Origin: Nitrospirales bacterium
GTDB taxonomy: Bacteria; Nitrospirota; Nitrospiria; Nitrospirales; UBA8639
Length of the DNA: 58,294 nucleotides
Direction: 5' to 3'
Assembly (NCBI GenBank): GCA_012270585.1
Contig: JAAXIB010000045.1
Location: forward strand, 1-58,294
Below are positions 9,575-17,040 of the stretch, in pieces. The notes beneath the pieces were generated by a model, which worked only from the letters and a program-made list of their open reading frames with translations, was not told where the DNA came from and searched no databases. Made by a program: the position numbers and the translations under genes. Each line of letters starts with the position of its first letter. Positions within the stretch are counted from its first letter, which is position 1.

Positions 9575-11149
9575 CTAAGACGTCATCCGTTCGTAGATGG
9601 CTTGAACCCGGGCCCTGACGGATTCGTAGCGGGCGAGAAACCTTTTGGCCGCAGAAGAAGGATGCGGGTCTCCGTAACCCATGCGGATAGCACATTTGGT
9701 CAATTCGGAAGGCCGGGCCGGTAGGGTATGGGTTTGCAATTCATGAACCATTTGCAGTTTATGCTCGATATCACGCAGAAACACGTAGGCTTCCTCAAGG
9801 AATTTCCCATCAGCGGCTTGCAAGAGGTTGAGGTGACGGAGGCGTTGAAGGCTCGTGGTAGTATTTGACTCAAGCAATTGTGGATGTGTCGATGCGTGCA
9901 GTAACTGAAGCGTCTGGACAATGAATTCAACGTCGCGAATTCCACCCGGACTGAGTTTGACGTTGCGCTCACCCTCCTTTTTTCTTTGCACGTTTCGATG
10001 AATTTGTGCCCTGAGTTTACAAACCGTATCGATAACGTTTCGGGATCTTCCTCCTTCCGACCCCACGACAAACGCCCGGATTTTCCTGAGAAAAGCCTGC
10101 CCCAAGGATCGTTGTCCTGCTATGGGGCGAGCTTTTAACAAAGCCAGCCGTTCCCAAGTCCTGCCGCGCGTTTGGTAGTATTTCACGGCTTCATGATTCG
10201 ACCATGCCAATGGTCCGACGGCTCCCTCGGGCCGCAATCGCAAATCCACTCGAAATAAACGCCCCTCCGAAGTGGAAGCCGATAGGACTCGGGTGAGTTC
10301 TCTTGCGATGAGCTGAAAAAACGCTTCATTGCCGATCGGTTCTTTTGCGGGTTTCGTCTGCCCTTTGCTTAAGGTATATAAATAAATGAGATCGACGTCG
10401 GAGCTGTAATTCAGTTCGCGTCCGCCCAATTTTCCCATTCCCAACACCACAAATCCCGTTTCGCTTGTTGTCCCTTGATGATGGGAAACGTCGTATTTTT
10501 TTTGGAGTTCTTCGTGCACAAGTTGATACGCGGCGTGGATCACGATTTCCGCAAGTTGCGTCAGGGATCGAACCGTCTCCCTTACGGACGAAACATGAAA
10601 GAGGTCCCGCGCGCCGACGCGCAGCATTTCGCGGCGATGAAAGCGTCGAAGAGCGTCGAGTTTGCGTTCGTAGGTTTGCACAAGATCAAGGGTCTCGTAT
10701 AAGGCAGTTTGAAGGCGTTTTGGAGTGGGGGCACCTTTCAGGATACGTTCTTCCTCAATCCAATAAATCAGCATGGGATCACGAATGAGCGTTTCCGCCA
10801 TCGCGGGACTGTTCCCAAACAGGACGCAGATCAATTGCAGGACGTGTGGCACTTGCGTCAAAAAGTCGAACACCTGGGCTCTGGCGTTGCCGGCGTCAAG
10901 GTATCGTTCCCATTCGCGTAACGCCTGATCCGGATCAGCCGTGACCGAAACGGCGTGCAACAGATCAGGAAGAATGCCCGCAAGTCGTTTTCGGCTTCGA
11001 GGATCACCGGCCATGAGTTGAAGGTTGGCGTCGGCTTGCTTCCAATCACGGAACCCGTACGGAGCCAACAGCCGTACGACTTCCGAAGGTGCTAAATTCG
11101 GAGAAAGCAGCAAAGGGCGAGGGTCGAAGCCTGAAGGCGGATTGGTCAT
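9575..11149 (-). CDS. GlnE-type nucleotidyltransferase, adenylyl-removase-like half
   Basis: About 524 residues, half the size of a full GlnE (about 950). The first 190 residues are helical. The nucleotidyltransferase core has GMGKLGGRELNYSSDVDLIY with metal ligands D251 and D253, and RVDLRLRPEG. A helical domain with GGIRDVEFIVQTLQLLH (402-418) and ELQTHTLP follows. These motifs match the N-terminal deadenylylating (AR) half of E. coli GlnE better than the AT half, which has GGI(T/V)DIEF. It would remove AMP from glutamine synthetase by phosphorolysis. The ATG at 11149 is preferred to a GTG at 11167. It diverges from the AT-like gene; the 135-base gap holds repeat units. The AR role is inferred. 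Confidence 0.8.
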   Translation of the reverse strand: MTNPPSGFDPRPLLLSPNLAPSEVVRLLAPYGFRDWKQADANLQLMAGDPRSRKRLAGILPDLLHAVSVTADPDQALREWERYLDAGNARAQVFDFLTQVPHVLQLICVLFGNSPAMAETLIRDPMLIYWIEEERILKGAPTPKRLQTALYETLDLVQTYERKLDALRRFHRREMLRVGARDLFHVSSVRETVRSLTQLAEIVIHAAYQLVHEELQKKYDVSHHQGTTSETGFVVLGMGKLGGRELNYSSDVDLIYLYTLSKGQTKPAKEPIGNEAFFQLIARELTRVLSASTSEGRLFRVDLRLRPEGAVGPLAWSNHEAVKYYQTRGRTWERLALLKARPIAGQRSLGQAFLRKIRAFVVGSEGGRSRNVIDTVCKLRAQIHRNVQRKKEGERNVKLSPGGIRDVEFIVQTLQLLHASTHPQLLESNTTTSLQRLRHLNLLQAADGKFLEEAYVFLRDIEHKLQMVHELQTHTLPARPSELTKCAIRMGYGDPHPSSAAKRFLARYESVRARVQAIYERMTS

Positions 11150-11157
11150 GATAGTTC

Positions 11158-11279
11158 GGGCGGGCACACAGGTCCGCCCCTACACCTGACAATGGTAACA
11201 TGTTACGGTATACCGACGGACCATGATGCGGGCCGACACCCTGATCTTCCGGCGGGCGGGCACAGGGGCCCACCCCCAC
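11158..11279. repeat. Two GGGCGG...CCGCCC(CTAC) units in the divergent glnE spacer
   Basis: 11158-11183 reads GGGCGG, ten bases, CCGCCCCTAC; 11254-11279 is a diverged second unit (GGGCGGGCACAGGGGCCCACCCC). A similar unit with other arms (GGGACGG...CCGTCCCCTAC) is at 47358-47383. The two occupy most of the gap between the divergent GlnE-type genes, so they overlap whatever promoter sequence drives them. I could not pick a convincing -35/-10 pair here. Confidence 0.6.
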
Positions 11280-11284
11280 AGACC

Positions 11285-13576
11285 ATGAACGAGACGTTCG
11301 ACTCAACGGAATTGGAAAAACTTTCTCACCAAATCGACCCCACGATTATCAAAGATTTTCTGGATCGCATGGATCCGGATTATTTCTCGCAATTTCCACC
11401 ACGGACCGTGGCTGAACACGTGGCCTTGGCCAACACCCTGACCTTGGAATCTCCCTGTGCGCTCCACGTGCAACCGGCACATGATGCAGGCCGGTACCTG
11501 TTCACGGTCGTCGCCTACGATTATTTTGCGGAATTTGCCACAATTTGCGGGTTGTTGTCTGCCTATGGCTTCGATATAGGCGAAGCGCATGTTTTTACGT
11601 ACCAGGACAGTCCCGCTCCTTCCCCTCCCCTCCCTTCCTTACGTCGCATGCAGGCACCCAAATGGCCGATCAGACGACACCACGAGCGGCCGGGACTATC
11701 AAGAAAAAAAGTTGTGGACGTCTTTCAGGTTCACCTGCTCCCGGGTATCGTCTTCAACGCAGAAATTGAACAGGAACTGAGTCGGGAATTGACGAAAATG
11801 ATTCGATTACTCGAAGCACGGAAAATCCAGGAGGTCCGGAATGGTGTGAACCGAAAATTGGTCGAAACGCTTGGCCAGAGGAACCCTGCAGCTTCCGCTC
11901 TTGTCTCTCCGGCAGAAATTTTCTTTAACAATACGTGTTCTGCACGAGAAACGGTCCTGGACATCAGGGGTACGGATTCCCCGGCTTTTTTGTATGCCTT
12001 TACAAATGCCTTGACCATGAGAGGGCTCTATTTATCAAAAGCGACGATCGAAGGAGACAGGCTAAGAGTCCGCAACCGATTTTTCGTCAGGGATCGACAT
12101 GGGAAGAAAATTGTTTCGACACAAGAACAACAGGAACTGACCGTCGCTGCGGCCCTCATCAAGGAATTTACCCATTACCTCAACTGGGCTCCCGACCCAG
12201 GCAGGGCGTTGAACCATTTCGGTAATTTCCTCGACCAGTTGCTGGAACATCGTCTCAGCAAAAAACGGATCAAGTGGCTCACCAGAAAAGATTCGTTGGC
12301 CAACCTCGCCCGGTTATTCGGCACGAGCGATTTTTTGTGGGAAGATTTCCTGCGTCGACAGCACGTCAACCTCCTGCCCATTGTTGAAACGTTTCATCAA
12401 CCTCAGGTTCGTTCATCAAAAACCGCTCTGGCCAAGGCGTTGGAGGACAGACTCGGAAAGAGTCGAAAACCTGAAATCCGAAAAGTGATCCTGAATCAGT
12501 TTAAGGATCAGGAATTGTTTCGCATCGACATGCATCATATTCTCAACAAGACGCCTCTCCCCTCATTCTCCAAATCTCTCACCACCTTGGCCGAGGTGAT
12601 CATAGCACAAGCTCTCGTCGAGGCCCAGTCAGTGATCAATCGGAAACACTCGCCGGCGTTTAGGTTGAAAAGAAGCCCTCTGCCGTTCAGTATTTGCGGA
12701 TTGGGCAAGTTGGGCGGTCGTGAGTTGGGCTACGCCTCCGACATCGAGCTTGTTTTTGTCTATGGGACGTCTCCGGGTGAGTCCGGTCTTCCCAATCCCG
12801 TCATCGGTGAATACTACGAGCGGCTCGTCCAGGAATTGCTTCATTGGATCGAAGCGAAACAGGAAGGAATTTTTCAACTTGATATCCGATTGCGACCTCA
12901 TGGAGAAAAAGGCCTGCTGGCCAACTCATTTGAAGACGTCAAACGTTACTATCGGCCTGGAGGAGCCGCTGCGCCTTTTGAACGACAAGCCTGGATTAAA
13001 CTGCGACACATTGCAGGGAATGCCGCGCTTGGTCGGCAAATCGAACGCTACCGTGACAACTTCGTGTATAGCTCAAACCCCTGGCCGTTGGACTCGGCGT
13101 TGCACCTGCGCCGTAGGCAGGTACGGGAGTTGGTCCCCCGGGGCGTCATTCACGTGAAATACAGCCCCGGCGGGCTTATCGACGTTGAATATGCCGTTCA
13201 GTACCTCCAATTACAACATGGACACCGGGAGCCTTCACTTCACACAACCAATACCCTGCAAGCGCTCAAGGCCCTTCAAGCGACCAAGCTTCTCTCACGT
13301 CACGATGCAATGACCTTGAGAGAAGATTATCTGTTTCTGAGAAAGGTCATTGATGGATTGCGCATCGTCCGGGGAAACGCCAAGGACCTGGTGTTACCAA
13401 AATCCGGTTCGGACGACATGACGTATCTTGCAAGAAGATTGGAGTATATCACTGACGTCTGGCAAGAAGGGGCACGGGCGTTTGAACGCGAGTTGCAAAA
13501 ACGAATGAACCGGTCACACGCGATTTTCGTCAAGCTGTTTTGCAAAAAACAATCTCGCACAAAACAACGACAATAG
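11285..13576 (+). CDS. ACT-ACT-GlnE chimera: adenylyltransferase-like half with GlnD-type ACT domains
   Basis: About 763 residues. The N-terminal part resembles the C-terminus of GlnD: a lead-in (FLDRMDPDYFSQFPPRTVAEH), a first ACT-like repeat (about 58-155, ending KKVVDVFQVHLL) interrupted by a Pro/Arg-rich insert, and a second (about 224-277: TVLDIRGTDSPAFLYAFTNA, then RFFVRDRHGKKI). A helical region leads to a nucleotidyltransferase core, GLGKLGGRELGYASDIEL (D486 and E488 in place of D-x-D), LDIRLRPHG, FERQA, and GGLIDVEYAVQYLQL (629-643), which resembles the adenylylating (AT) half of GlnE. GlnD ACT domains bind glutamine, so this protein may sense glutamine directly. The ATG at 11285 is chosen because longer starts translate repeat DNA; no strong ribosome site is visible. 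The function is inferred. Confidence 0.75.
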   Translation: MNETFDSTELEKLSHQIDPTIIKDFLDRMDPDYFSQFPPRTVAEHVALANTLTLESPCALHVQPAHDAGRYLFTVVAYDYFAEFATICGLLSAYGFDIGEAHVFTYQDSPAPSPPLPSLRRMQAPKWPIRRHHERPGLSRKKVVDVFQVHLLPGIVFNAEIEQELSRELTKMIRLLEARKIQEVRNGVNRKLVETLGQRNPAASALVSPAEIFFNNTCSARETVLDIRGTDSPAFLYAFTNALTMRGLYLSKATIEGDRLRVRNRFFVRDRHGKKIVSTQEQQELTVAAALIKEFTHYLNWAPDPGRALNHFGNFLDQLLEHRLSKKRIKWLTRKDSLANLARLFGTSDFLWEDFLRRQHVNLLPIVETFHQPQVRSSKTALAKALEDRLGKSRKPEIRKVILNQFKDQELFRIDMHHILNKTPLPSFSKSLTTLAEVIIAQALVEAQSVINRKHSPAFRLKRSPLPFSICGLGKLGGRELGYASDIELVFVYGTSPGESGLPNPVIGEYYERLVQELLHWIEAKQEGIFQLDIRLRPHGEKGLLANSFEDVKRYYRPGGAAAPFERQAWIKLRHIAGNAALGRQIERYRDNFVYSSNPWPLDSALHLRRRQVRELVPRGVIHVKYSPGGLIDVEYAVQYLQLQHGHREPSLHTTNTLQALKALQATKLLSRHDAMTLREDYLFLRKVIDGLRIVRGNAKDLVLPKSGSDDMTYLARRLEYITDVWQEGARAFERELQKRMNRSHAIFVKLFCKKQSRTKQRQ

Positions 13577-13719: not shown

Positions 13720-15129
13720 TCAAATATCGTAGTACAAAAAGAATTCATGTGGATGCGGACGGATGCGAACCTCATCGGCTTCGTTTTCCCGTTTGTAGCT
13801 GATCCAGGCTTCTACCAGGTCTTCGCTGAAGACGCCGCCTTTTAACAGGAATTGATAGTCGTTTTCCAGGTTATTGAGGGCTTCATCCAAACTTCCGGGA
13901 ACGGTTGGAATATTCATCGCCTCTTCCGGTGCCAAATCGTAGAGGTTTTTATCCATGGCCTCACCGGGATCAATTTTATTTTGAATGCCGTCAAGGCCGG
14001 CCATCAGCATCGCGCTGAACGCCAAATAAAAATTGGCCGAGGGGTCGGGAAATCTCACTTCGATCCGTTTGGCCTTCGGATTGGGAGAATACATCGGAAT
14101 CCGGATGCCGGCTGACCGGTTACGGCTGGAATACGCCAACAACACGGGAGCCTCGAATCCCGGCGTCAATCGTTTATAGGAATTGGTCGTCGGATTCGTA
14201 AATGCCGCCAGGGCGGAAGCATGTTTCAAAACACCGCCGATGTAATGCAAACACGTTTTGGAAACGCCCGCATATTCTTTGCCGGCAAACGTGGGTTTCC
14301 CATCCTTCCAGATACTTTGATGGGTATGCATGCCCGTTCCATTGTCCTGGAATAACGGTTTCGGCATAAACGTCGCGGTTTTGTTGTGCCGCCGGGCCAC
14401 GTTCTTGACAATGTACTTATACATCATCATTTTGTCGGCCATACTCACCAGGGTATCGAAGCGAAGATCAATTTCAGCTTGTCCCGCCGTCGCCACTTCG
14501 TGATGATGTTTTTCAACGCGAATCCCGGCTTTTTCCATTTCCCTGACCATTTCGGAGCGGATATTCTGTTGCGTATCTGTCGGAGCGACGGGGAAATAGC
14601 CTTCCTTATGCCGAGGCCGTGAGCCCAAATTGTGACCGTCTTCGCCTGAATTCCATATGCCTTCCTCGGAATCGATAAAATAATAGCCCGAGTTGCTGGT
14701 TTGGTCGTAACTGGCGTGGTCGAACACAAAGAATTCGGCTTCAGGCCCCCAATAGGAGACGTCGCCGATTCTGGTACTCTTCAGGTATTGCTCCGCTCGT
14801 TGAGCCACACCTCGCGGGTCGCGCTCATAGACTGCGCGCGTGATCGGATCCTGCACGTTACACACCATGCTGAGAGTGGGCAGCTCGGTAAACGGATCCA
14901 ACCGCGCGGTGTTCGGGTCGGGAAAAACCAGCATGTCGCTGCTCTGAATCGCTTTCCACCCACGGATGGACGATCCGTCAAACCCCGCTCCATCCTTAAA
15001 CAAATCGAGAGTCAGTTCCGAGGTCGGAGTGGAAAAATGCTGCCACGTCCCTACCAGGTCCACAAATTTGAGATCGACCATTTCCACTTTGTTCTTTTTT
15101 GCAAAATCCAACACCTCACGCGGAGTCAT
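13720..15129 (-). CDS. glnA: Type I glutamine synthetase
   Basis: 469 residues, the standard GSI-beta length. Motifs include [12 protein letters not shown] (52-58), EAEFFVFD, the ATP-binding [16 protein letters not shown] and NRSAGIRIP. Most important, the adenylylation site [10 protein letters not shown] places the target tyrosine at residue 397, exactly as in E. coli. It condenses glutamate and ammonium to glutamine in the cytoplasm, and the intact site fits the two GlnE-type genes next to it. The ATG at 15129 is preceded by GGAGGTACGG. It is the last gene of porin-amt-glnB-amt-glnA, 47 bases after the second amt, and ends at a bidirectional terminator. Confidence 0.98.

Positions 15130-16641: not shown

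Positions 16642-17040
<399 letters not shown>

Follow-up and report, generated by a model that had tools for sequence, protein, structure and literature searches.

Covalent enzyme control has its textbook example in the GlnD-PII-GlnE bicyclic cascade. In E. coli GlnE, the N-terminal half removes AMP and the C-terminal half is responsible for AMPylation (PMC12409994), and signal transfer between these opposed activities is not fully understood. Here, we describe a locus in which the two halves are encoded separately. It lies on a stretch of 58,294 nucleotides from a Nitrospirales bacterium (contig JAAXIB010000045.1 of assembly GCA_012270585.1, C37 in our numbering), in the following called the window; the source genome comprises 2.50 Mb in 89 contigs and is 100% complete with 1.5% contamination. 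The GlnE system is present there as two polypeptides, AR and AT, and both the N-half and the C-half lineages are represented.

AR, 9575..11149, minus strand: 524 aa, stand-alone homologue of the GlnE N-terminal half, predicted deadenylylase of AMP-modified glutamine synthetase (GS-AMP)
AT, 11285..13576, plus strand: 763 aa, ACT module and homologue of the GlnE C-terminal half, predicted GS adenylyltransferase
Divergent intergenic region between AR and AT, 11150..11284: 135 bp

Both open reading frames (ORFs) were confirmed at these positions on opposite strands, in agreement with the first-pass annotation of this DNA, which had described two GlnE-type nucleotidyltransferases diverging across 135 bases. 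Its statement that the removase, as predicted, is a separate polypeptide also holds, as AR has its own gene on the opposite strand and no full-length GlnE was found in this complete genome. AR starts either at an ATG, giving 524 aa, or at a GTG 18 bp upstream, giving 530 aa. The start of the 763-aa AT agrees with that of its relatives; a version of the ORF with 794 aa begins further upstream.

For comparison, full-length GlnE was taken from E. coli and, in 20 cases, from other classes of the phylum; each of these 21 proteins was split into an N core and a C core, and 20 of them entered a tree. The N-half profile beats the C-half profile by 40-110 bits on AR, and AT prefers the C-half profile in 15/16 cases. 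In the tree, AR groups with the GlnE N-halves, while AT is found with the C-halves on the opposite side of a branch with 100/100 support; AR and AT are each monophyletic (100% each). The two cores thus belong to different GlnE halves, as had been proposed for the 524-residue and the 763-residue protein. Both proteins match the Pfam models GlnE (PF03710; AR 1.1e-70, AT 5.8e-40) and, further downstream, GlnD_UR_UTase (PF08335; AR 7.7e-31, AT 3.6e-14). With the equivalog models PRK11072/14108/14109, which describe one bifunctional polypeptide, AR and AT stay below the cut-offs (357 and 215 bits vs 487). By analogy with the E. coli enzyme, we infer that AR is the deadenylylating and AT the adenylylating half.

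The two proteins are built from the following parts; counts out of 29 refer to the 29 AR/AT loci that were opened in the class of Nitrospira, two of them from the same genome.

Lead-in helices of AT, GlnD-like (residues 7-49), 11303..11431, plus strand: hhalign to GlnD from 657 onward; helices in the predicted model
ACT1 of AT (residues 57-177), 11453..11815, plus strand: ACT-type strand/helix order in the model; fold matches to ACT regions
ACT2 of AT (residues 210-299), 11912..12181, plus strand: hhalign, TIGR01693 match and model; conserved loop D-[ST]-P-A-F-L
R-domain remnant of AT at the junction with the GlnE core, 12185..12247, plus strand: APDPxxALxxFxxFLD, R-profile positions ~71-98
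GlnE nucleotidyltransferase domain of AT, 12299..13048, plus strand: PF03710, 3.5e-41
Metal-binding motif D-I-E (DxE) of AT, 12740..12748, plus strand: Glu in 29/29 AT
GlnD_UR_UTase-type helical domain of AT, 13151..13540, plus strand: Pfam 3.6e-14
R-like helical domain at the N-terminus of AR, 10847..11125, minus strand: HMM of the GlnE R linker, 33.6 bits
Metal-binding D-V-D motif of AR, 10388..10396, minus strand: DxD in 29/29 AR

What sets AT apart is its N-terminus. Residues 9-286 align to positions 607-842 of the 850 positions of the GlnD model TIGR01693 (6.9e-15), and the ACT region of PRK05092 is matched with 4.5e-21; GlnD models are the only NCBIfam matches of this module, and the same is true for 10/10 relatives. 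When a profile of the 29 AT is compared with a GlnD alignment, lead-in, ACT1 and ACT2 are collinear over 231 columns (hhalign 99.3%, E 1.4e-20). The module profile matches 13/13 GlnD proteins and gives no match in AR or in the 21 full-length GlnE. Judged by these alignments, the N-terminus of AT is homologous end to end with the C-terminus of GlnD. The Pfam ACT models scarcely detect the module (0.0021, below the cut-off), so that Pfam alone would miss it; a weak Pfam match leads to the plant GlnD-like family ACT_ACR9_3rd. A sequence search of the PDB with the module returned no matches, and an HD domain has no Pfam match in AT.

Modelled with AF2 over its full 763 aa, AT reached a mean pLDDT of 59, with informative fold matches for the core and ACT1; since ACT2 was not resolved in this model, residues 1-322 were modelled separately. 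The resulting model, a prediction from ten sequences, has a pLDDT of 77.6 and a pTM of 0.77 and contains two ACT-type units. Its best fold neighbour is the ACT region of aspartate kinase (Z 11.1, 154 aligned, 3.7 A), next to the ACT regions of large glutamate dehydrogenase (GDH; Z 9.9, 142 aligned, 2.8 A) and of threonine deaminase, IlvA (Z 8.8, 140 aligned, 3.3 A). The model thus suggests a module with two ACT folds, and the GlnD-like lead-in and two ACT-like repeats read from the sequence in the first-pass annotation are borne out by profile search and structure prediction alike.

In full-length GlnE, the two cores are 105-120 residues apart, a distance mostly made up by the R domain. The N-terminal flank of AR aligns with R (hhalign 99.0%, 2.8e-18). 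AT retains a recognisable trace of the last third of R alone, directly after ACT2 and with very low profile scores (hhalign 48%, E 1.8e-4); the ACT module thus takes up the position that most of the R domain would have. A simple loss of the R domain from both proteins was also considered and is rejected for AR, which keeps its R-like domain at the N-terminus. As for the catalytic residues, both proteins keep the G-K-x-G-G motif, the first Asp, the third carboxylate and the Arg of RLRP. At the second metal position, 29/29 AT have Glu, and Asp is found in 29/29 AR, in 21/21 N-halves and in 21/21 C-halves of full-length GlnE.

A split GlnE with an ACT-bearing AT is a class-wide trait. Across 247 genomes of the class of Nitrospira, searched with the AT profile and with PF03710 (all searches within the phylum), the AT profile matches 209/247 genomes, 159/177 high-quality genomes and 43/54 genera, a few of these being matches to AR only. 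PF03710 scores above 1e-15 in 208/247 genomes of the class, and the listed genomes in which it has no match nearly coincide with those that the AT profile does not match. AR and AT are thus nearly always present or lost together; most of the few genomes with one half only are fragmented or incomplete (G046, G031, G044, G348, G300), whereas G217 and G157 have one half for no such evident reason. The two genes are adjacent in 29/29 opened loci and divergent in the two main families as well as in f5 and f8. No full-length GlnE was among the matches listed for the class; other classes of the phylum have a full-length GlnE of ~930-1080 aa, or none. No published split or ACT-bearing GlnE was found in the open-access library that was searched. 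From the comparison within the phylum, the split ACT-AT would be new as a variant of GlnE, not as a new kind of system.

Some deviating cases were observed in the same survey. AR and AT are convergent in f3, f6 and f7 (L076, L077, L079), where they lie tail to tail with an overlap of 4-97 bp. Small or streamlined class members (G002, G006, G185, G291 and others) are without AR and AT, and streamlined freshwater Nitrospira have been reported to be without glnE (PMC9239080), in line with these pair-less small genomes. A loss of Tyr397 of GlnA in GlnE-lacking genomes was considered and rejected, as 10/10 checked keep this residue. Two genomes of the same genus encode proteins of ~800-830 aa (L139 1642-4134 in G012 and L141 893-3283 in G010), in which an FA_desaturase/AlkB-like membrane domain (PF00487, 3e-24) is fused to a degenerate GlnE-like nucleotidyltransferase (PF03710, 1e-10 and 2e-6) that is without the GKLGG motif; no match to such a fusion was found in the window's own genome.

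AR and AT are neighboured by ClpB, GlnA and an amt-PII-amt cluster.

glnA, 13720..15129, minus strand: TIGR00653, 671 bits; predicted substrate of AR/AT
PII (GlnK/GlnB type), 16642..17034, minus strand: YRGTEY T-loop, Pfam P-II 2e-31; flanked by two amt genes

GlnA is the sole GS of the genome (a single PF00120 match) and keeps Tyr397, as the first-pass annotation had noted. The PII encoded near glnA carries a Tyr51-type T-loop. A complete GlnD with NTase motif, HD domain and ACT domains is encoded on contig C47, adjoining nadE. The first-pass annotation had suggested a shortened GlnD-PII-GlnE relay and had proposed to look in the genome for glnD and a full-length glnE. A normal GlnD is present and a full-length GlnE is absent, so that of the pair named there as a refutation the genome has GlnD only; because complete GlnD and Tyr51-type PII occur together, the GlnD-PII relay is intact, and the ACT module of AT could at most add a direct branch to it. 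The suggested shortening is thereby supported in part.

Three further observations concern this neighbourhood and its partners. A second, divergent PII-type protein (L006, G000:C22:23191-23481, 76 bits) is without the Tyr51-type T-loop sequence. The GlnD of genome G028 (L117) has apparently lost its frame in ACT2 and is shortened, unlike all relatives, perhaps through a sequencing error or a real truncation. GC-rich 25-bp direct repeats are found at 11159-11183 and 11255-11279, at and in the AR/AT intergenic region, the second copy with 3 mismatches; no further copies occur elsewhere in the window, and none were obtained in 100 shuffles.

We consider it fairly probable that the locus represents a split GlnE acting on Tyr397 of GlnA, with AT gated via its GlnD-derived ACT pair. 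AR would remove AMP from this residue and AT would add it. Most likely, binding of an amino acid, or small molecule, to the ACT pair would gate AT, and the intact GlnD may, by way of PII or PII-UMP, still act on AR through the R-like domain that AR keeps. GlnD-PII signalling would continue, and adenylylation and removal would be placed under separate inputs, not toggled within one protein. We are more hesitant about a PII-independent single-step feedback, in which a metabolite-gated AT (responding to glutamine or another amino acid) would be opposed by the separately regulated removase; GS in the class of Nitrospira would then be under two unlinked enzymes instead of one PII-toggled enzyme.

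Several points weigh against a split GlnE of this kind. The activities of AR and AT are predictions from sequence. The Asp-to-Glu exchange (DxD to DxE) is fixed at the metal ligand of AT, and the stem branch of AT is long, with 1.3 changes per column vs 0.35 for AR; given both, the activity of AT may have shifted. AT attaches deep among the C-halves, and because of the long stem its exact sister is not fixed by the tree. Regarding the ligand, the ACT1 β1-α1 loop of AT reads invariantly D-Y-[FL]-[SA]-E-F and the GlnD-type hallmark Gly is absent, while in ACT2 the hallmark Gly of GlnD (13/13) is replaced by Ala in 28/29 AT and kept in 1. In PGDH, the ligand site falls on a near-invariant Gly at the turn of this loop (PMC3173338). 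Since this Gly is replaced or missing, the ligand of AT may be one other than glutamine; the first-pass claim that the transferase senses glutamine directly is not supported as stated. E. coli GlnE responds to glutamine without ACT domains, and direct glutamine sensing by AT therefore need not be new physiology. Small-molecule sensing by AT is nevertheless likely. The strong conservation of its loops indicates that some function is under selection; that glutamine itself is the ligand can be put forward only tentatively.

Along this line, it is quite conceivable that AT adenylylates GS and that its ACT module senses an amino acid other than glutamine, or serves mainly for dimerisation or for the docking of AR, PII or GS. 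The loops are near-invariant within the AT family yet unlike those of GlnD, in ACT1 as in ACT2, and the nearest folds include the ACT units of large GDH, aspartate kinase and IlvA, all of which have effectors other than glutamine. However, the sequence kin of the module is GlnD and no other NCBIfam family, the weak Pfam match is to a plant GlnD-like ACT, and glutamine is the natural feedback signal for GS.

A plain split of GlnE seems unlikely to us; both pieces would then answer to PII as the E. coli enzyme does, and the ACT module would passively fill the place of the R linker. It would fit the intact GlnD and PII, the R-like domain kept by AR, and the nearly constant joint presence or absence of the pair. 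Nevertheless, the whole ACT module including its loops is strongly conserved over the class, which points to a selected function, and most of R is gone from AT.

Still less probable is a weakened or dead AT that would serve as regulatory partner of AR, with AR as the sole, possibly bidirectional, enzyme. The DxE fixed in 29/29 AT and the long stem speak for it, whereas the other catalytic residues examined are fixed as well; if the domain were dead, their loss throughout the class would be expected. A precedent for DxE is kanamycin nucleotidyltransferase. The superfamily signature, Dh[DE]h, permits Glu at the second metal position (PMC11646218). On both grounds AT is expected to be active, possibly with altered metal use.

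Finally, the reading of the locus as an artefact of sequencing or assembly, or as what is left of a full-length glnE after decay to a pseudogene, is refuted: the fragmented assembly (89 contigs) is the sole doubt, AR and AT lie on opposite strands, the same arrangement occurs in single-contig genomes, and its conservation in >200 genomes excludes chance or assembly artefact.

With GlnE split in two and a GlnD-type module on the presumed adenylylating half, nitrogen control in the class of Nitrospira probably follows rules other than those of the E. coli textbook scheme. A class with separated activities and a GlnD-type sensor on one of them would provide naturally dissected parts for assigning signals to halves. 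The organisms are related to nitrite-oxidising Nitrospira and, through the same class, to comammox bacteria; nitrogen assimilation must here coexist with nitrogen as fuel.

Compared with known systems, AR and AT share with GlnE (E. coli ATase; PDB 1v4a, 3k7d) the nucleotidyltransferase and helical domains, the catalytic residues, and a Tyr397 GlnA beside them. GlnE, in contrast, is one protein and not two divergent genes; AT is without most of the R domain and carries an ACT-ACT module and DxE, and the R-like domain of AR is N-terminal instead of central. With GlnD (PII uridylyltransferase/uridylyl-removing enzyme), AT shares the collinear lead-in, ACT1 and ACT2, but it is without HD domain and GlnD-type NTase, its module is N-terminal where that of GlnD is C-terminal, the loop Gly is replaced, and a true separate GlnD coexists in the genome. 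Plant ACR11/ACR12 are GlnD-like double ACT proteins tied to GS/GOGAT (PMC3173338); they resemble AT in linking a GlnD-type ACT pair to the control of glutamine metabolism, but belong to the plant chloroplast and have no nucleotidyltransferase, and ACR11 keeps the loop Gly while AT does not. The 180-kDa glutamate dehydrogenase mGDH180 (PDB 9hv0/7jsr) is a different enzyme without sequence match to the AT module, yet it shares lead-in helices and ACT fold, residues 6-188 of the module being placed on its residues 463-615.

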